Source of the DNA: Saccharopolyspora thermophila
GTDB lineage: Bacteria; Actinomycetota; Actinomycetes; Mycobacteriales; Pseudonocardiaceae
Direction: 5' to 3'
Length of the DNA stretch: 64,000 nt
Assembly: GCF_014646075.1 (NCBI RefSeq)
Contig: NZ_BMMT01000002.1
Span: 310,001 to 374,000, forward strand
Under the pieces are notes generated by a model that saw nothing but the letters and a program-made list of their open reading frames with translations, was not told the DNA's origin and searched no databases. Position numbers and translations under genes: made by a program. Below, piece after piece: positions 31,852 to 39,284 of this stretch (position 1 is its first letter; every line of letters begins with the position of its first letter).

Positions 31852-33195
31852 TCAGGCGACGCCCTCGGTTTCCTTCGGGGTGCTGATCTGCTCCGCGGGG
31901 GCCCGGAAGCGGGCGAGTAGGAGGAACAGCACCGCCGCGCCGAGGCCGCAGCACGCCAGCAGGTACAGGCCCGCGGTGTTCGAGCGGAAGGTGGTCTCGA
32001 TCCAGTTCTTCGCCACCGGCGCCACGAAACCGCCGAGGTTGCCCAGGGAGTTGATCAGGCCGGTCCCCGCTGCCGCTGCGGTGCCCGTCAGGTACGCCGC
32101 CGGGAACGTCCAGAACACCGGCTGGACCGAGATGTAGCCCGCGGCCGCGACCGCGAGCCCGGCGATCGCCAGGACCGGGCTGCTGAAGTACGCCGAGGCC
32201 GCGATGCCGACCGAGCCGCCCGCGACGCAGGCCGCCGCGACGAACCGCTTGTCGGGCTGCGCGAGCCGGTCGGCTCCGGTGGACACCGCGATGTTCACCA
32301 GCAGCGCCACCGTCCACGGGATGGCCGTGACCAGACCGACCAGCAGGCCGACCTTGCTGCCGACCGCCTCGGCCACCTGCGTGGGCAGGTAGAAGGTCAT
32401 GCCGTAGACGCTGCACTGGATGAGGAAGTAGATCAGGCAGAAGTACAGCACCCGCGGGTCCACCAGCGCCGACCACAACCGGTGCGGGCTGTGCGCCTGC
32501 TTGGCCGCGGCCTCCTGGTCCACCGCCGACTGCAGGGCGGTGCGCTGCTCCGGCGACAGCCACTTCGCGTCGGCGGGCTTGTTGTCCAGGTAGAAGAACG
32601 CCCACACGCCGACGACGCAGGCGATCAGGCCCTCCACGGCGAACATCCACTGCCAGCCCAGGATGCCGCCCACGCCGTCGAGTTCCAGCAGCATGCCGGA
32701 CAGCGGCCCGCCGAGTACCGAGGCGAGCGGGATGCCGAAGTAGAACAGCGCGTTGCACCGGGCCCGGTAGGCGTGCGGCACCCAGTAGGTGATGAACAGG
32801 ATGACGCCCGGGAAGAAGCCGGCCTCGGCCACGCCGAGCAGGAAGCGCAGGACGTAGAACAGGACCTCGCTGTTCACCAGCGCCAGCGCGGCCGAGATCA
32901 GGCCCCAGGTGACCATGATCCGGCACATCCACCAGCGGGCGCCGACGCGCTGCATGATCAGGTTGCTGGGCACCTCGAAGAGCGCGTAGCCGATGAAGAA
33001 CAGGCCCGCGCCCAGCGCGTAGGCCGCCTCCGAGATGCCGGCGTGGGCCTGGAACTCCTCCTTGGCGAAGCCGACGTTGACGCGGTCCAGGAACGCGATG
33101 ACATACATGAAGAACAGGAACGGCATCAGCCGAACCATGACCCGCCGGATCGCGGTGGTGAGCGCCTCGTCGGGCGCCCGCTCGCCGGTGTGCAC
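31852..33195 (-). CDS. MFS transporter, anion:cation symporter type (probable sugar-acid uptake)
   Basis: The 447-residue protein has 12 hydrophobic spans. The pattern FLDRVNVGFA in helix 1, the RxGARWWMCR loop and the EAGFFPG segment are typical of the ACS family that takes up hexuronates, galactonate and related acids. It is divergent from a sugar-acid dehydratase, with shared operator-like palindromes between them, so a pentonate or aldonate substrate is likely. The GTG at 33195 is preceded by GAGGAGGCAGG; longer in-frame starts run through the operator and are unlikely. Confidence 0.85.
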   Translation of the reverse strand: MHTGERAPDEALTTAIRRVMVRLMPFLFFMYVIAFLDRVNVGFAKEEFQAHAGISEAAYALGAGLFFIGYALFEVPSNLIMQRVGARWWMCRIMVTWGLISAALALVNSEVLFYVLRFLLGVAEAGFFPGVILFITYWVPHAYRARCNALFYFGIPLASVLGGPLSGMLLELDGVGGILGWQWMFAVEGLIACVVGVWAFFYLDNKPADAKWLSPEQRTALQSAVDQEAAAKQAHSPHRLWSALVDPRVLYFCLIYFLIQCSVYGMTFYLPTQVAEAVGSKVGLLVGLVTAIPWTVALLVNIAVSTGADRLAQPDKRFVAAACVAGGSVGIAASAYFSSPVLAIAGLAVAAAGYISVQPVFWTFPAAYLTGTAAAAGTGLINSLGNLGGFVAPVAKNWIETTFRSNTAGLYLLACCGLGAAVLFLLLARFRAPAEQISTPKETEGVA

Positions 33196-33221
33196 CCTGC
33201 CTCCTCGCTGAGGTGGTGAGT

Positions 33222-33337
33222 GTTCGAAATATCGAACCATGTTCGTGATATGGGACACGAGCCTAGATCTGGTGCGGGGTGGCGTCAATGGCCTGGAGCT
33301 CGGTGTTCGATATCGCAACGGATGTTCGAAATCGCGG
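33222..33337. promoter_or_regulatory. Three IclR-type operator-like sites between transporter and dehydratase
   Basis: GTTCGA-AATA-TCGAAC at 33222-33237 is a perfect inverted repeat. Related copies GTTCGATATCGCAAC (33305) and GTTCGAAATCGCGG (33324) follow. IclR-family regulators of acid catabolism bind words like GTTCGATNATCGNAC. No regulator gene is adjacent. Confidence 0.55.
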
Positions 33338-33424
33338 ATCTGTGGTGGTAGGGGTATTGCGCGTCGGGTTCGGAGCTGGTTACGTCGCGACTCGACCGAC
33401 GATGTTCCCCACCAAGGAGGGCGG

Positions 33425-35143
33425 ATGACGACCCCGCGGCGCAGCACGAGTTGGTTCGGGGCTCATGGGCGGGCCGGGATGACCGCCCGGTCCTGGGTCA
33501 GGAACCAGGGCTACGGCGACGAGGTGTTCGACGGTCGGCCGGTGATCGGCATCGGCACCACCTGGTCCGAGCTGGCGCCGTGCAACGCCCACCAGCAGCG
33601 CATCGCCGAGGCGGTCAAGCGCGGGGTGTGGCAGGCGGGCGGGTTCCCGCTGGAGTTCCCCAACATGGCGCTGGGCGAGACGCTGATGCGGCCGACCGCG
33701 ATGCTCTACCGCAACCTGCTGGCGATGCAGGCCGAGGAGACCATCCGCGCCAACCCGCTGGACGGCGTGGTGCTGCTGTCCGGCTGCGACAAGACCACGC
33801 CCGGCATGCTGATGGCCGCGGCGAGCGTCGACCTGCCCACCGTGATGCTCACCGGTGGCCCCATGCTCAACGGCAAGTACAAGGGCACCGACATCGGATC
33901 CGGAACCGCTGTGTGGCAGGCCGAGGCCGACCTGGTGGCGGGGCGGATCACCCAGGACGAGTGCTTCTTCATCGAGGGCTGCATGTCCCGCTCCAACGGG
34001 CACTGCATGACGATGGGCACGGCCTCGACCATGGCCTGCGTCGTCGAGGCGCTGGGTATGCAGTTGCCGTACGCGGCGACGTGGCCCGCGGTGGACGCCC
34101 GTCGCTACGCGGCCGCGCAGCAGACCGGGCAGCGCATCGTCGAGATGGTGCAGGAGGACCTCAAGCCGTCGGACATCCTGACCCGCGAGGCGTTCCGCAA
34201 CGCCATCCGCGCCAATGCGGCCATCGGCGGCTCCACGAACGCGGTCGTGCACCTCATCGCCATCGCCAGGCGCGTCGGCGTCGAGCTGACCATCGACGAC
34301 TTCGACGCCGACACCCGCGACGTCCCGACGCTGGTGAACCTGCAGCCCAGCGGCACGTTCCTGATGGAGGACTTCTGCTACGCGGGCGGCCTGCCCGCGG
34401 TGCTCAAGGAGCTCGGTGACCTCGTGGAGCGCTCGGCGATCACGGTCACCGGCCGCACCATGGGGGAGAACATCGCCGACGCGGAGGTGCACAACCGCGA
34501 GGTCATCACCCCGTTCGACAAGCCGTTCCGGGCCGTCGGCACCGGGACGGCCGTGCTGCGCGGCTCGCTGGCCCCGGGCGGCGCCGTGGTCAAGCAGTCC
34601 GCCGCCTCACCGCGGCTGCTGCGGCACCGCGGCCCGGCCATGGTGTTCGAGGACGTGGACGACTACTACGCGGTCTGCAAGGACGACGACCTGGACGTCG
34701 ACGAGAACACCGTGCTCGTCATCCGCAACGCCGGGCCGAAGGGGTACCCGGGCATGCCCGAGATCGCCAACGTACCGGTGCCGAAGAAGGTCCAGGACGC
34801 GGGATTCGACGACATCGTGCGGATTTCCGACGGCCGGATGAGCGGCACCGCGTACGGCACGGTGATCCTGCACGTCACACCGGAAGCGGCGGCGGGCGGC
34901 CCGCTGGCGTTCGTGCGCACCGGCGACATGATCAGCATCGACGTTCCGAACCGCCGCCTCGACCTGGAGGTCCCGGACGAGGAGCTGGAGCGCCGCCGGG
35001 CGGAGTGGAAGGAACCGGACAACCCGTTCCCCCGCGGCTACCAGCGCCTGTACCACGACCACGTCCTGCAGGCGTCGGACGGAGCGGACCTCGACTTCCT
35101 CGTCGGCAAATCCGGCAGCTACGTCCCCCGCGACGGCCACTGA
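33425..35143 (+). CDS. IlvD/Edd-family sugar-acid dehydratase (pentonate/arabonate type)
   Basis: The 572-residue protein has the Fe-S dehydratase motifs: NTWSE-like TTWSELAPCN, SGCDKTTPGMLMAAASVDLP, and CMSRSNGHCMTMGTAS with cluster Cys, and GSTNAVVHLIA. The N-terminal RSWVRNQGYGDEVFDGRPVIGIG and the overall length resemble L-arabonate/xylonate dehydratases rather than the amino-acid enzyme IlvD. It would convert a pentonate to the 2-keto-3-deoxy acid. AAGGAGG lies 7 nt before the ATG. It pairs with the divergent transporter. Confidence 0.87.
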   Translation: MTTPRRSTSWFGAHGRAGMTARSWVRNQGYGDEVFDGRPVIGIGTTWSELAPCNAHQQRIAEAVKRGVWQAGGFPLEFPNMALGETLMRPTAMLYRNLLAMQAEETIRANPLDGVVLLSGCDKTTPGMLMAAASVDLPTVMLTGGPMLNGKYKGTDIGSGTAVWQAEADLVAGRITQDECFFIEGCMSRSNGHCMTMGTASTMACVVEALGMQLPYAATWPAVDARRYAAAQQTGQRIVEMVQEDLKPSDILTREAFRNAIRANAAIGGSTNAVVHLIAIARRVGVELTIDDFDADTRDVPTLVNLQPSGTFLMEDFCYAGGLPAVLKELGDLVERSAITVTGRTMGENIADAEVHNREVITPFDKPFRAVGTGTAVLRGSLAPGGAVVKQSAASPRLLRHRGPAMVFEDVDDYYAVCKDDDLDVDENTVLVIRNAGPKGYPGMPEIANVPVPKKVQDAGFDDIVRISDGRMSGTAYGTVILHVTPEAAAGGPLAFVRTGDMISIDVPNRRLDLEVPDEELERRRAEWKEPDNPFPRGYQRLYHDHVLQASDGADLDFLVGKSGSYVPRDGH

Positions 35144-35211: not shown

Positions 35212-35700
35212 TCAGCTGGCGGGGACCTGCGGGTCGCTCCAGCCGAGGTAGTTGTCGAAGTAGGACAGGCTGTTGGCGTGGCCGATGGCGCCGTTGACGC
35301 TCGTGGCGTAGAAACCGCCCTTACCGTCGGCGATCCCGACGTGGCCGTACCTGCTGATGTCCCAGTACACGAAGGCGCCCTTGGGCGGGGTGGAACCGTC
35401 GGTGTGCGCCTTGCCCGCGCGCACCGCACCCTTCCAGTGCGCGATCGCCGAAGGCCACACCCCGGTGGTGCCCCAGGCGTTCTCCACGGCCTTCTCGCAC
35501 AGGCCCTGGTAGGAGGTGTCACCGATGCGGGCCTGGAACCACTCGATGGCCCCCTGCGCTGTCCCGTCCCCGGGAGAAGCCACCTGCACGGCTTCGGCCG
35601 ACGGAGACCAGGTGACTTCCGGCACGGCGACGGGAGCGAGCAGCAGTGCGGCGGCGACACCGCACGAGCCGGCTAATCGAACGAGACGACGCCTGTTCAC
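35212..35700 (-). CDS. Secreted CHAP/NlpC-P60-like cysteine hydrolase
   Basis: The 162-residue protein has a signal peptide (VNRRRLVRLAG start, hydrophobic core, Ala-rich cleavage region). The mature part has GLCEKAVENAWG with the probable nucleophile Cys and YGHVGIADGKGG with the partner His, the spacing of CHAP/NlpC-P60 peptidoglycan amidases. It may trim cell wall. The GTG at 35700 has GGGAGG 5 nt upstream and gives a compact signal peptide. It is adjacent to, but separated by 180 nt from, the toxin-immunity module on the same strand. Confidence 0.72.
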   Translation of the reverse strand: MNRRRLVRLAGSCGVAAALLLAPVAVPEVTWSPSAEAVQVASPGDGTAQGAIEWFQARIGDTSYQGLCEKAVENAWGTTGVWPSAIAHWKGAVRAGKAHTDGSTPPKGAFVYWDISRYGHVGIADGKGGFYATSVNGAIGHANSLSYFDNYLGWSDPQVPAS

Positions 35701-35880: not shown

Positions 35881-37026
35881 TTACGGCATGGTCGGGTAAT
35901 CGAAAATGGTGATCGGCTCGACGACGTCTTCGGTGGGAGCGCGGCCAAGCTCGGCGATCACGACGTCTGCCTTGTCTGCGGAGAGGTCGACGAGTCCGAT
36001 ATGGAGGGATGTGCCACTGGCCTTTCGGGCGGCCAAGGCCGTTGGAAGGGTATGGAGGAGCTCGATGAGAACAGGGCGGTTTCGTACGCCCAGCTGCTCC
36101 AGCTTCGTGAACACCAGGACCTTCGCTCGAACATGGCGAATCGCTTCTGCGAGGGAGGTCGCGCCTGGTGAGATGCTGTTGGCGAGGGCTTGTACGGAGG
36201 CAACATTGCGCACGTCGATCTCCCACAGGTGTTCAGGGCCGCGACCGAGTTGCTGAACCCATCGGTTCAACTGCGAGTGCGGAAGGTCGACGTGAATTGC
36301 GCTCGAAGTCCATGTGACGTCGGGAAGTTGATGTGGATCCACGGGGACGGGTGCGATTATCCGTGGTTGCTCGTCGACCGAATCGGGTGGCGCGCTGGGT
36401 GGTCGAACGGTCATGTTGGAACCGTGGTTTCTGAACCATTCTTCCAGATCGCTGCCGTCCAGCAGGATTCGTCGTGGTTCTGTTTGAACGACGACGGGGC
36501 CGCGGACCAGGCCGATTGTTCCGTCGATGCGGGCACCTGTGAGATCAGCTTCGCTGAGATCGGCTCGATCGAAATTGCATCCCTCGAGATCAGCATCCGT
36601 GAAGTTGGCTCCACTCAGGAGAGTCTTTACGAGTGTTGCGCCCGCGAGACTGGCTCCCTGGAAGTTGGAATCCATTGCTGTCGCGCGGGTGAAGTTTGCG
36701 CGCGCCAGTCGTGCCATCACGAAATTTGCTCGGTCCAGGCTTGCTTCAGCGAAGTTGGCATCCGACAGGTCGGCCCGGGTGAAGCGGGCCTCCGTGCACT
36801 CGGCGTCGGCGAGCTGGATGCCACGAAGGGTGGTGTCCGCGAGGTTGCTGGACATGAACCACGCGCTGGTGAAATCTCCTCCGGAAAGGTCCGCCCCACG
36901 AAGGTCCGCGTCGATCGCATAGAACTCCCGGTGTCCTTCGCCCGCGAGCCAGCTGCGCAGATCGGAAACGACTTCGGGGTCGTTCGGCCATCGGCGTGGC
37001 TGCCAGTCATGGGTACCAGAGGACAC
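35881..37026 (-). CDS. Pentapeptide-repeat protein, probable immunity protein of the adjacent toxin
   Basis: The 381-residue protein has a pentapeptide-repeat domain at about residues 38-170 (A(D/N)LxxA units such as ADLRGADLSG, ANFTDADLEG), predicting a quadrilateral beta-helix. The following 210 residues are an unrecognised alpha/beta domain ending in an acidic strand. The GTG start lies 20 nt inside the toxin gene's 3' end, so the two are translated together. The DNA is clearly less GC-rich than its surroundings. An immunity role is inferred from position, overlap and composition; pentapeptide proteins can also protect gyrase by DNA mimicry. Confidence 0.75.
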   Translation of the reverse strand: MSSGTHDWQPRRWPNDPEVVSDLRSWLAGEGHREFYAIDADLRGADLSGGDFTSAWFMSSNLADTTLRGIQLADAECTEARFTRADLSDANFAEASLDRANFVMARLARANFTRATAMDSNFQGASLAGATLVKTLLSGANFTDADLEGCNFDRADLSEADLTGARIDGTIGLVRGPVVVQTEPRRILLDGSDLEEWFRNHGSNMTVRPPSAPPDSVDEQPRIIAPVPVDPHQLPDVTWTSSAIHVDLPHSQLNRWVQQLGRGPEHLWEIDVRNVASVQALANSISPGATSLAEAIRHVRAKVLVFTKLEQLGVRNRPVLIELLHTLPTALAARKASGTSLHIGLVDLSADKADVVIAELGRAPTEDVVEPITIFDYPTMP

Positions 37027-38437
37027 GATCTTCCCATCCGTTCTTCTGCACGATGTCTGCCATGAATCTTAGTGCATCGCTGTTGACGTTCCGTGTGTCG
37101 ATGATTACCTTGTTGCCGTCCTCGAACTCTTTGCTCAGTGATTTCGTAAATGTTTCCGGCGTGACCGCGTGCTTGAACGGTCCCTTGCGGTGTTCAGGCG
37201 GCACGTGGTCTGGGTAGTCGCTTTGAAAGCTCTTGATGTCCCAGCGGTCGCCCGTCGCAGGGTCTACAAAGTCGCCGTGCCGCACGTCGGTTGGACGTGT
37301 TAGATCGGGGCCGAGTCGGCCGCTTTCTCGTAGATCCAGGGCGACGCGAGCCTCGTTTTCCGTGCTCCGGTTTGGCTTGCCCATATGCGCCGGGTCATTC
37401 GTACGCCAGTTGTCGAAGTCTGCTGGGTACCGCTTCTCCAGTTCCGTCAGGTATTGTTCATGGGCCTGTTTTTCCGCAGGGGTCATTTCGGGGTGCGGAG
37501 TGTTGGGATCGTCTGGTGTCCGCGGCAAGTGGTCATGGCCGGACCGGCGTGGGTCCTCGGGGTCCGGGTGCCCGGTACCCGGCGGGGTGTCCGGCGGGTC
37601 GTCGGGAGGATCGTTGGGGTTCTTTGGAGTGTTCGGGTCTTTCGGAGTCGGGGGTGGTGGGTTTTTCGGGTCGGGTAGCGGGTTTCCGTTGGTGATGTCG
37701 TCGAGGATCCGGCGGAGCCGGACGAGGAGGTCGGCCAGTTTCCGGACCAGGGGGACCAGTTTCATCAGGCCCTGCAGGAGCTTCTGGACGACCTGCATGA
37801 TGCGGGCTCCCCAGCGGGCCACCCGGGCCGTGGCCTGGGCTGCTACCACCGCGATGCCCACTCCGGTCGACGCTTCGATGGCCCAGGAGACGAGTCGGCC
37901 GACACAGTCGGCGATCAGGTCGCGGACCACTTCGCGGATCGTGCCGACGAACATGCCGGAGATCTCGGTTCCGGCGGCCAGGGCTCCGGCGGCCTCCGAC
38001 TGCGCTCGGATGAGTTGCGCCGTCGCCGCCAGGCGCGACCGGTAGGCATCGGCGGCCGCCCCGGTCCAGCCCGCGGTGTCCCGGTCGACGTCGGCCTGCA
38101 GGGCGTCGGCGGTGGTGCGCAGCGATTCGCTCACGTTGCGCCACGTCTGGGCGTGGGCCGCCACCTGGTCGGCATTGCCGGCGAGCTGGTCGAGGATGTC
38201 GGTGAGCGGTTGGACGTACTCGATCACCCAGCCGACCACCCACGACACCCCCGTGCCGATCGGGTCGAGGACCGCCGACAGCGCCTCGAGTCCGGTACCC
38301 AGGACGCCGTAGCCGACCTCGGCCCACGAGCCCGACTCGATGGCCGCGCTGACGTCGGCGATGGCCTCCACGATGCCGATGCCGGTGTACCAGCTGGACG
38401 AGTCCTGCGGCGGTGCGATCAGCGGGTTGTCGCTCAC
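37007..38437 (-). CDS. WXG-domain polymorphic toxin with C-terminal nuclease-like domain (type VII secretion type)
   Basis: The 476-residue protein has an N-terminal helical WXG/LXG-like region with W-T-G at residues 124-126 followed by a YRSRL turn, hydrophobic helices to about 250, a Pro/Asp-rich linker (252-318), and a separate C-terminal domain from about 340. That domain has NEARVAL (E362), an acidic loop at 386-397 and W-D400-I-K402-S, a pattern of PD-(D/E)xK nucleases and of CdiA-type toxins. It probably leaves the cell by type VII secretion and cuts nucleic acid in rivals; activity is inferred. The GTG at 38437 follows the EspC-like gene by 4 nt. Confidence 0.78.
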   Translation of the reverse strand: MSDNPLIAPPQDSSSWYTGIGIVEAIADVSAAIESGSWAEVGYGVLGTGLEALSAVLDPIGTGVSWVVGWVIEYVQPLTDILDQLAGNADQVAAHAQTWRNVSESLRTTADALQADVDRDTAGWTGAAADAYRSRLAATAQLIRAQSEAAGALAAGTEISGMFVGTIREVVRDLIADCVGRLVSWAIEASTGVGIAVVAAQATARVARWGARIMQVVQKLLQGLMKLVPLVRKLADLLVRLRRILDDITNGNPLPDPKNPPPPTPKDPNTPKNPNDPPDDPPDTPPGTGHPDPEDPRRSGHDHLPRTPDDPNTPHPEMTPAEKQAHEQYLTELEKRYPADFDNWRTNDPAHMGKPNRSTENEARVALDLRESGRLGPDLTRPTDVRHGDFVDPATGDRWDIKSFQSDYPDHVPPEHRKGPFKHAVTPETFTKSLSKEFEDGNKVIIDTRNVNSDALRFMADIVQKNGWEDRVLWYP

Positions 38438-38441
38438 CGGC

Positions 38442-38762
38442 TCACCCGCCGAGCTCGTCGGCAAGCCGCTGCAACGCGGTGGCGATCTCGGCGTCGCTCG
38501 CTTCGTAGTCCGCGAGGGCGTCGCGCAACGACGACGACAGCGCGGCGACCGCGCGTTGCGCCGCGGAGGTGGTCGACAGCACCGCGTCGGCCGTTTCGGT
38601 CAGCAGCGGGGGCAGGAACTGGCAGATCAGGCCGTAGGCGTCCGTGTCCAGCCGCACGGCGCGCCCGGCGTCCGCGGCCTGGCCGAGCGCCGCGGCGTGG
38701 TCGTCGAGCTTGTCCGCGTGCGCGCGCAGCTGGTCGGGCGGAATCCGGAAGCCGTCCGCCAT
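38442..38762 (-). CDS. EspC-like type VII secretion target protein (DUF2580)
   Basis: The 106-residue helical protein starts MADGFRIPPDQLRAHADKLDDHAAAL, typical of the EspC/DUF2580 family that forms four-helix pairs with WXG toxins and is exported by ESX systems. It lies directly upstream of the toxin (4-nt gap), as partner/chaperone genes usually do. No Trp-x-Gly turn is present. Confidence 0.85.
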   Translation of the reverse strand: MADGFRIPPDQLRAHADKLDDHAAALGQAADAGRAVRLDTDAYGLICQFLPPLLTETADAVLSTTSAAQRAVAALSSSLRDALADYEASDAEIATALQRLADELGG

Positions 38763-38780
38763 CGATCCCCCTCGGAGGTG

Positions 38781-39284
38781 TCAGTTCAGGAATGTCTCGT
38801 CGCTGAAGTCGCCGTCGTCGTGGGCGCCGTGCACTCGCGTCGGGCCGGGATGCGCGGGGCCGCCGGGTTCCGGCTGGGCGGAAGCGGGCTCGGCGAGCCG
38901 CGGGTGCGATGCCGGCGTTGGGGGAAACCGCTGCCGGTAGTTGCTGGTCACCGCGTTCGCTGTCGTGGGATCTGCGTCGCCGAGCGTGGCCTTCGTGGCC
39001 TCGGCCACGTGGTCGGCGATGCGCGACTGGGCCCGCCGCAGGACGGCCATGAACTCGGCGCTGAGCTCGGCGCCCGACGCCCGTTGATCGTGGAACCGCA
39101 CGTCCGTGGGGACGCCCTCGGCGTCGACGGTCACCGTCACCGACCGGCTGTGCTCGGTGATGCGGATGCGGCTGATCTCCTGTTGCAGCGCCGCGGCGCG
39201 GCGCGCCTTCTGCTCCAGGTCCTGCGCCCAGTTCTGGATCGCGCGTTCCGCCTCGGCCGGATCCGCGCCGAAACCCTGCGACAT
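38781..39284 (-). CDS. YbaB/EbfC-family nucleoid-associated-like protein
   Basis: The 167-residue protein has the YbaB core: a helix, a strand pair with VTVTVDAEGVPTDVRFHDQ, and a second helix (SAEFMAVLRRAQSRIADHV), then a Pro/Gly-rich tail of about 60 residues. Such YbaB-domain genes are often the first gene of actinobacterial EspC-toxin operons; whether they bind DNA or act as secretion partners is unknown. It heads the minus-strand toxin module and is divergent from murE. Confidence 0.82.
   Translation of the reverse strand: MSQGFGADPAEAERAIQNWAQDLEQKARRAAALQQEISRIRITEHSRSVTVTVDAEGVPTDVRFHDQRASGAELSAEFMAVLRRAQSRIADHVAEATKATLGDADPTTANAVTSNYRQRFPPTPASHPRLAEPASAQPEPGGPAHPGPTRVHGAHDDGDFSDETFLN

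Follow-up and report, generated by a model that had tools for sequence, protein, structure and literature searches.

A probable type VII-secreted polymorphic toxin operon of Saccharopolyspora thermophila, with a pentapeptide-repeat immunity domain and a constant C-terminal module

Within a 64,000-nucleotide stretch of the Saccharopolyspora thermophila genome (the window, to which all positions refer), we analyzed four closely spaced genes at 35881-39284, encoding a YbaB-like protein, an EspC protein, a WXG toxin and a pentapeptide-repeat (PPR) protein. These genes, their parts and the CHAP-like gene downstream lie on the minus strand. We consider it probable that these genes form a type VII-secreted polymorphic toxin operon, in which the immunity protein joins a PPR immunity domain to a constant module that bounds an exchanged cassette. 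The gene identities and the close spacing proposed in an initial annotation of this DNA were borne out by the coordinates and Pfam matches: in operon order, the genes are separated by 18 nt and 4 nt, and the last two overlap by 20 nt (37007..37026), as had been noted. The toxin (37007..38437; 476 aa) comprises a region matching PF25547 and PF06013, a Pro-rich linker and a conserved C-terminal domain. The immunity protein (35881..37026; 381 aa) consists of a PF00805 repeat domain followed by a module shared with other proteins.

The pairing of toxin domain and PPR gene was found to recur in other genomes. The genomes searched were samples and, with up to nine first-look candidates scored per genome in the phylum searches and up to ten in the f5 search (345 genomes of a different actinobacterial family), the tallies are lower bounds. 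The toxin domain was detected in at least two further genomes among 396 of the phylum (whole in one, a 37-residue piece in the other), and in at least 11 of the 345 f5 genomes, where seven copies were whole and four had the last part only. Directly behind the toxin end, 10 of the 11 f5 loci carried a PPR homologue colinear with residues 1-210 of the immunity protein (P0002); the sole locus lacking one was that holding only a 37-residue toxin piece. The 20-nt overlap was also present in seven of these ten loci, i.e., those in which an ATG or GTG occupies the corresponding position, as computed from match ends with the stop codon assumed to follow at once. S. kobensis possesses the same toxin domain and PPR pair at the locus. 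On a Paenibacillus polymyxa plasmid (L134, 1289-4998), the toxin domain (36% identity over 81%) ends a protein annotated as "phage baseplate assembly protein V", and a gene annotated as "pentapeptide repeat-containing protein" begins 11 nt behind it. The product of the latter is colinear with residues 39-202 of P0002, covering the repeats and part of the cap (23% identity, E 5e-14, the value being that of a single comparison of a kind favored by repeats). The Paenibacillus PPR gene is followed by further fragments of toxin and immunity genes, with annotations as a GH-E family nuclease (120 nt), an ankyrin-repeat protein and a DUF2185 protein.

Given that the same pair occurs in other genera and in another phylum, the coincidence of the two genes is not due to chance, and as the pair travels together onto different carriers, it behaves as a toxin and its immunity protein. 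The putative role of the PPR protein as cognate immunity of this toxin is thus strongly supported by the comparisons. The initial annotation had proposed a toxin with cognate immunity, and had named an absence of co-occurrence in other genomes first among the grounds for abandoning the idea; the f5, S. kobensis and Paenibacillus loci instead support it across genera, phyla and carriers.

The front of the immunity protein contains a pentapeptide-repeat stretch (residues about 39-170; 36517..36912), to which PF00805 was matched in five stretches (E 1.3e-31) with a score of 108.2 bits against a cut-off of 20.2. Behind the repeats lies a conserved cap (residues about 171-208; 36403..36516), seen in the alignment as "GPV...LDGxxLExWfrxxGxxxxV", which was present in 13 of 13 aligned immunity proteins and partly in that of Paenibacillus. 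In seven of ten f5 loci the homologue stops at about 211-223 aa and lacks the module, and in the remaining three it carries a different C-terminal module. Qnr and MfpA protect DNA gyrase, and the PPR protein might likewise shield the target of the toxin instead of binding the toxin itself, a reading that we regard as unlikely. The acidity of the PPR domain (net charge of -8 to -14 in 13 proteins) would suit such a role, and PPR proteins can mediate resistance to gyrase poisons (PMC7897471). However, one and the same toxin domain is accompanied by the PPR gene on different carriers and in another phylum, and in three f5 loci the gene is found even where only fragments of the toxin are left, all of which fits a specific antidote. 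Moreover, matches to the Qnr and MfpA NCBIfam equivalogs fell far below their cut-offs (39.7 of 240 and 36 of 360 bits, respectively).

The remainder of the immunity protein, residues 240-381 (35884..36309), is the constant C-terminal module. A search with residues 175-381 yielded seven proteins, four of which had first halves unlike the PPR domain. The module was identified in 14 of 297 genomes of the organism's own family (11 of its own genus, with one and two from two other genera), and a profile search placed it in 12 of the 22 genomes of the genus, one copy having an internal stop. A contig scan of 84,980 species returned 10 module loci, all of them from Saccharopolyspora, a result that is not exhaustive given that the scan confirmed 10 of 66 stretches and missed known loci. 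In each of the 18 proteins read, including that of the window, the module was the C-terminus and single-copy (it is truncated in L038); 17 of these were read with fetched context, in which gene calls in other genomes came from a simple caller and starts are uncertain.

Five N-terminal types were found before the module: PPR, type B (in S. indica, S. rosea and NPDC003752), type C (in S. soli, S. shandongensis and P0010), an Ntox24-associated type and an EndoU-associated type. We judged these to be unrelated, the first three by pairwise comparison (19-35% global identity between types) and the last two by visual inspection and Pfam. The fourth type stands behind Ntox24 toxins in all four loci tested, and the fifth, which has weak MafI/DUF6189 similarity, stands behind EndoU toxins in all three loci tested (Pfam was run on three EndoU-type toxins, with those of L042 and L043 left out). 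The module-ended immunity types face PD-(D/E)xK-like, Ntox24, EndoU and two unclassified toxins. Comparison of these proteins showed residues 240-381 to be a separable module that ends four immunity types besides PPR. The initial description of the pentapeptide protein as "two-domain" missed that the second part is a portable module common to other immunity types. As to copies standing apart, no toxin was called beside L038 or L045, and insertion-sequence-like genes precede the copy in L040. In S. soli (L043, 1-4100), three module-bearing immunity genes stand in tandem near an EndoU-type locus.

Immunity homologues outside Saccharopolyspora were either without the module or equipped with another one. 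Relatives of type C were found in 4 of 150 f5 genomes, without the Saccharopolyspora module. A second module, of about 80 aa ('YYAKI...RRR...EAFTRNLRWEPTEYLRLYELGHN...'; L083, L084, L086, L061, L089-L095), was detected in 7 of 121 genomes of f5, where it follows a PPR protein as well as three or more other N-terminal types. The type-C relatives in f5 (L130-L133) bear yet another C-terminal extension; in L133, the sequence immediately upstream includes a frame that looks like the end of a restriction-type toxin.

The module could also be a second immunity domain, directed against another toxin, such that the whole would be a polyimmunity protein sensu Zhang et al. (2012). Polyimmunity proteins are known (PMC3482391), and at this very locus S. 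antimicrobica has a PPR domain fused to a type-B-like immunity domain (L030, 4642-5748), the fusion lying behind an orphan PPR-plus-module gene that is preceded by a toxin remnant. Nevertheless, we hold this explanation to be improbable, as the module was invariably C-terminal and single-copy on five immunity types in the 18 proteins read, and the PPR and type-C relatives of another family do without it. In addition, a protein of the module alone was not seen, the shortest proteins being of 177 and 203 aa and not checked for truncation.

To follow the locus between species, we compared S. kobensis, S. indica, S. antimicrobica, S. rosea and S. soli, in which the YbaB protein (53-64% identity), the EspC-like protein (56-77% identity) and the module are held in common, and the toxin end and immunity front vary. 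The N-terminus of the toxin is 57-82% identical in all of these except S. antimicrobica, which keeps only a toxin remnant. The toxin end of the window is present in S. kobensis and was not found in S. indica, S. rosea or S. soli, i.e., this end is variable. In S. indica (type B) and S. kobensis (PPR), the 1.8 kb leading to the toxin linker were 89% identical in nucleotide sequence; there was then no match for about 1.5 kb, after which similarity resumed with the opening codons of the module (86%) and reached 95% downstream. Module identity was 83% (indica/kobensis) and 87% (indica/antimicrobica) across types, and 58% within type B (indica/rosea). Furthermore, a tree of 21 modules rejected a single clade for the four PPR owners (p-AU of 4e-5 in the approximately unbiased test). 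In this tree, many inner branches were unresolved (6 of 18 starred, seven open); the truncated S. elongata copy and most EndoU-type copies were left out, and P0007 stood for the S. antimicrobica copy. Taken together, the nucleotide and tree comparisons showed that a putative cassette of toxin end and immunity front has been exchanged between species at this locus, with the module staying in place. As DNA similarity resumes at its edge, the module also bounds the exchanged cassette.

The module was modeled with confidence (predicted local distance difference test, pLDDT, of 82-96 by block over 241-380). The fold matches listed for it were AAA+-type, and the Walker A motif GxxxxGK[ST] was absent from all 24 module rows examined (two or more being duplicates), so that the module is predicted to have an AAA+-like fold without a P-loop. 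A barstar-like fold, suggested by the order of strands and helices, was set aside as the listed matches were AAA+-type instead, although these do not exclude it. A profile match to a coatomer subunit in the PDB (E 0.013) was likewise set aside, being partial and unrelated. Ten module rows, over three genera and several loci, shared 13 invariant columns; this alignment (A3) holds 10 of the 24 rows, and alignment A5 omits P0005 (identical) as well as P0015 and P0030 (short). The ratio of nonsynonymous to synonymous substitution (dN/dS) was 0.18-0.44 in six pairs, as estimated by a simple counting method with two synonymous distances above 1. The module is under purifying selection. This bears on the idea that it has no protein function and is merely a homology arm kept by cassette exchange, for which one could cite the resumption of similarity at its 5' edge and the recombination via conserved blocks known for type VII secretion system (T7SS) immunity genes (PMC9484751). 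The invariant columns, the low dN/dS and the confident fold all speak against it, and we give it little credence. A role as a protein and a role as a cassette boundary can be compatible. The conservation of the module at the protein level, together with its failure to track the type of toxin, points to a shared cellular partner.

The C-terminal domain of the toxin (residues 318-476; 37010..37486) carries E362, D389 and D400-I-K402; in the 476-aa reading, which starts at a GTG at 38437, E362, D400, I401 and K402 fall where the initial annotation had placed them. Ten whole actinobacterial copies keep these four residues together with D or E at position 389. The P. polymyxa copy keeps E, D and K, with V in place of I401, such that E, D and K are invariant across the 11 whole copies compared. 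The PD-(D/E)xK pattern consists of a conserved E, then D/E, then D/E-x-K, and the domain displays it as E362, D/E389 and D400-x-K402. In the model, E362 lies in a helix (357-371) and D400 and K402 in a strand (398-403), followed by helix, strand, helix and strand. Judging from the conserved motif and from the secondary structure that a weak model assigns, and not from a family match, we read the domain as a PD-(D/E)xK-like nuclease. Residues 318-476 alone matched no Pfam family, the scattered weak Pfam matches of ten domain copies included no nuclease family, and a search of PDB sequences with a 10-row profile of the domain found no known nuclease. One match of this profile, to a chain named H12 (25 positions, E 0.0055), was discarded as partial and unrelated. 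In phages, no match to the toxin domain was found.

Upstream of this domain, a WXG100-like region (residues 86-205; 37823..38182) was matched by PF25547 over 87-205 and by PF06013 over 86-146 and is helical in the low-confidence model, and a Pro-rich linker (residues about 250-317; 37487..37690) had pLDDT values below 45 by block. In the S. shandongensis relative, PF25547 exceeded its cut-off (29.9 versus 27 bits); the toxin shows the WXG100-type N-terminal domain of T7SS WXG polymorphic toxins. The gene upstream encodes an EspC-like T7SS partner of 106 aa (38442..38762; PF10824, E 9e-11). Four EccCa matches above the curated cut-off were obtained in the organism's own genome and none in 14 control genomes; judging by these four genes, the genome encodes ESX-type secretion machines. 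Seven other places in the same genome (L002-L008) resemble the N-terminal part of the toxin at 24-36% identity, so the genome probably has more WXG toxins. A gene of 1316-1319 aa, read as EccC, is found in L044 and L045 no more than a few kb away from the EndoU-type module immunity genes. An anti-phage or abortive-infection system, in place of a secreted interbacterial toxin, had been left open by the initial annotation and is highly improbable in view of the WXG and EspC architecture and of PADLOC, in which none of the five proteins tested had a match at E 0.01. Its one favorable sign is a weak match of the immunity protein to the anti-phage NCBIfam family HalA (E 0.055, far below the cut-off).

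Several observations weigh against the interpretation of a secreted nuclease with a two-part immunity protein. The WXG matches of the window's own toxin (PF25547, E 4.9e-5; PF06013, E 7.2e-5) were both below the Pfam cut-off. The only f5 carrier read over its N-terminal part (L060) has a different N-terminus with no match to WXG or other T7SS Pfam families; an EccD gene 2.4 kb downstream of its toxin/PPR pair, on the other hand, favors secretion. The toxin model was built on three sequences, with a mean pLDDT of 51.5 and a predicted template modeling score (pTM) of 0.34, the C-terminal domain ranging from 44 to 91 by block. Its fold-search matches covered only helical residues 55-257 and were mostly BAR-type domains with a few PE/PPE pairs; the nuclease assignment drew no support from family searches or from a fold search confined to the helical part. 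The toxin domain is itself acidic (net charge of -6 to -11 in 10 copies), as is the PPR domain, an argument against a complex driven simply by charge. For the same reason, the PPR protein is less likely to be a simple nucleic-acid mimic, and the contact would probably be shape-specific and not that of a plain DNA mimic. As to the module, no Foldseek match reached E <= 0.001, with helicases and other P-loop folds mixed in among the matches, and its role as a common docking domain is a guess.

With these points in mind, the operon may work as follows. An ESX machine would export the toxin, with EspC as partner, and the toxin C-terminal domain would act as a PD-(D/E)xK-type nuclease in rival cells. 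Residues 1-208 of the PPR protein would bind and block the nuclease domain directly, via beta-helix and cap. The module would serve every toxin alike as a docking domain for a shared host component, candidates being secretion ATPases or an unfoldase that has to remove the immunity protein before the toxin is exported. The DNA encoding the module would also provide the downstream homology arm for cassette exchange. More tentatively, one can envisage a generic immunity handle, i.e., a dead AAA+-like domain fused to different immunity domains, such that one host machine (secretion ATPase, unfoldase or protease) handles all of the complexes and the gene doubles as the downstream exchange arm, a second handle having arisen in another actinobacterial family; this proposal we put forward as possible, if rather doubtful.

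Polymorphic T7SS toxins, polyimmunity proteins and recombination through T7SS immunity-gene blocks are known already (PMC3482391, PMC9484751). Like T7SS WXG/LXG polymorphic toxins, the present system has a WXG-like N-terminus, a Pro-rich linker, an exchangeable end, an adjacent immunity gene and a small helical partner; unlike them, it has a toxin domain without a Pfam match and an immunity gene of two parts, the front being exchanged and the end constant. With the pentapeptide-repeat resistance proteins Qnr, MfpA, McbG and AlbG, the PPR protein shares PF00805 repeats and acidity, but it is the operon partner of one toxin domain and has a conserved cap and a fused module. Polyimmunity proteins similarly have several domains in one polypeptide, one of them for immunity (Zhang et al., 2012; PMC3482391), whereas here five immunity types have the same second domain, which was always C-terminal. 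In the T7SS immunity genes esaG and tipC, too, conserved blocks serve recombination, some of them at the 3' end (Garrett et al., 2022; PMC9484751); those genes are tandem paralogues of one family, whereas here a common end is found on different immunity types, and toxin end and immunity front vary together. Finally, the inactive STAND/AAA+ third components of MoxR-vWA conflict systems also have an AAA+-type core without nucleotide-binding motifs, but those systems are described as almost absent from actinobacteria (PMC7159879), and the likeness is one of predicted fold. Nothing on point for PPR immunity to this toxin domain, or for a constant C-terminus on different immunity types, was found in the available portions of the literature searched (including PMC12419801, PMC3942780, PMC11481896, PMC7159879, PMC3482391 and PMC9484751), and the word "pentapeptide" is absent from the first 300,000 characters of PMC3482391.

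Polymorphic toxins would gain a toxin domain without a Pfam match and a PPR immunity type, co-occurring in three lineages. More important are two-part immunity proteins whose constant module does not follow the toxin neutralized. If the module acts in export or turnover, how the cell removes immunity protein from toxin before secretion becomes a question; if it only anchors recombination, it shows how a single step can exchange the toxin along with its antidote.

The first gene of the operon encodes a YbaB/EbfC-domain protein of 167 aa (38781..39284; PF02575, E 3.2e-6, exceeding the cut-off). Downstream of the operon lies a gene for a CHAP-like secreted protein (35212..35700; PF05257, E 0.0075, below the cut-off), which is 73-76% identical in S. 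kobensis, S. indica and S. antimicrobica; the S. rosea and S. soli stretches compared ended before it. This gene is probably a constant flank of the locus and not part of the toxin pair. As judged from translations, with no family search, the operon sits between ftsI-like and murE-like genes. In S. elongata (L038, 5996-6736), a truncated type-C immunity gene lies at the division and cell wall (dcw) locus, where YbaB, EspC and toxin genes were not called. In the window, genes resembling those for a major facilitator superfamily (MFS) transporter and a dihydroxy-acid dehydratase (31852-35143, by reading and with no family search) intervene between the ftsI-like gene and the toxin operon, and the dcw cluster is therefore interrupted here.

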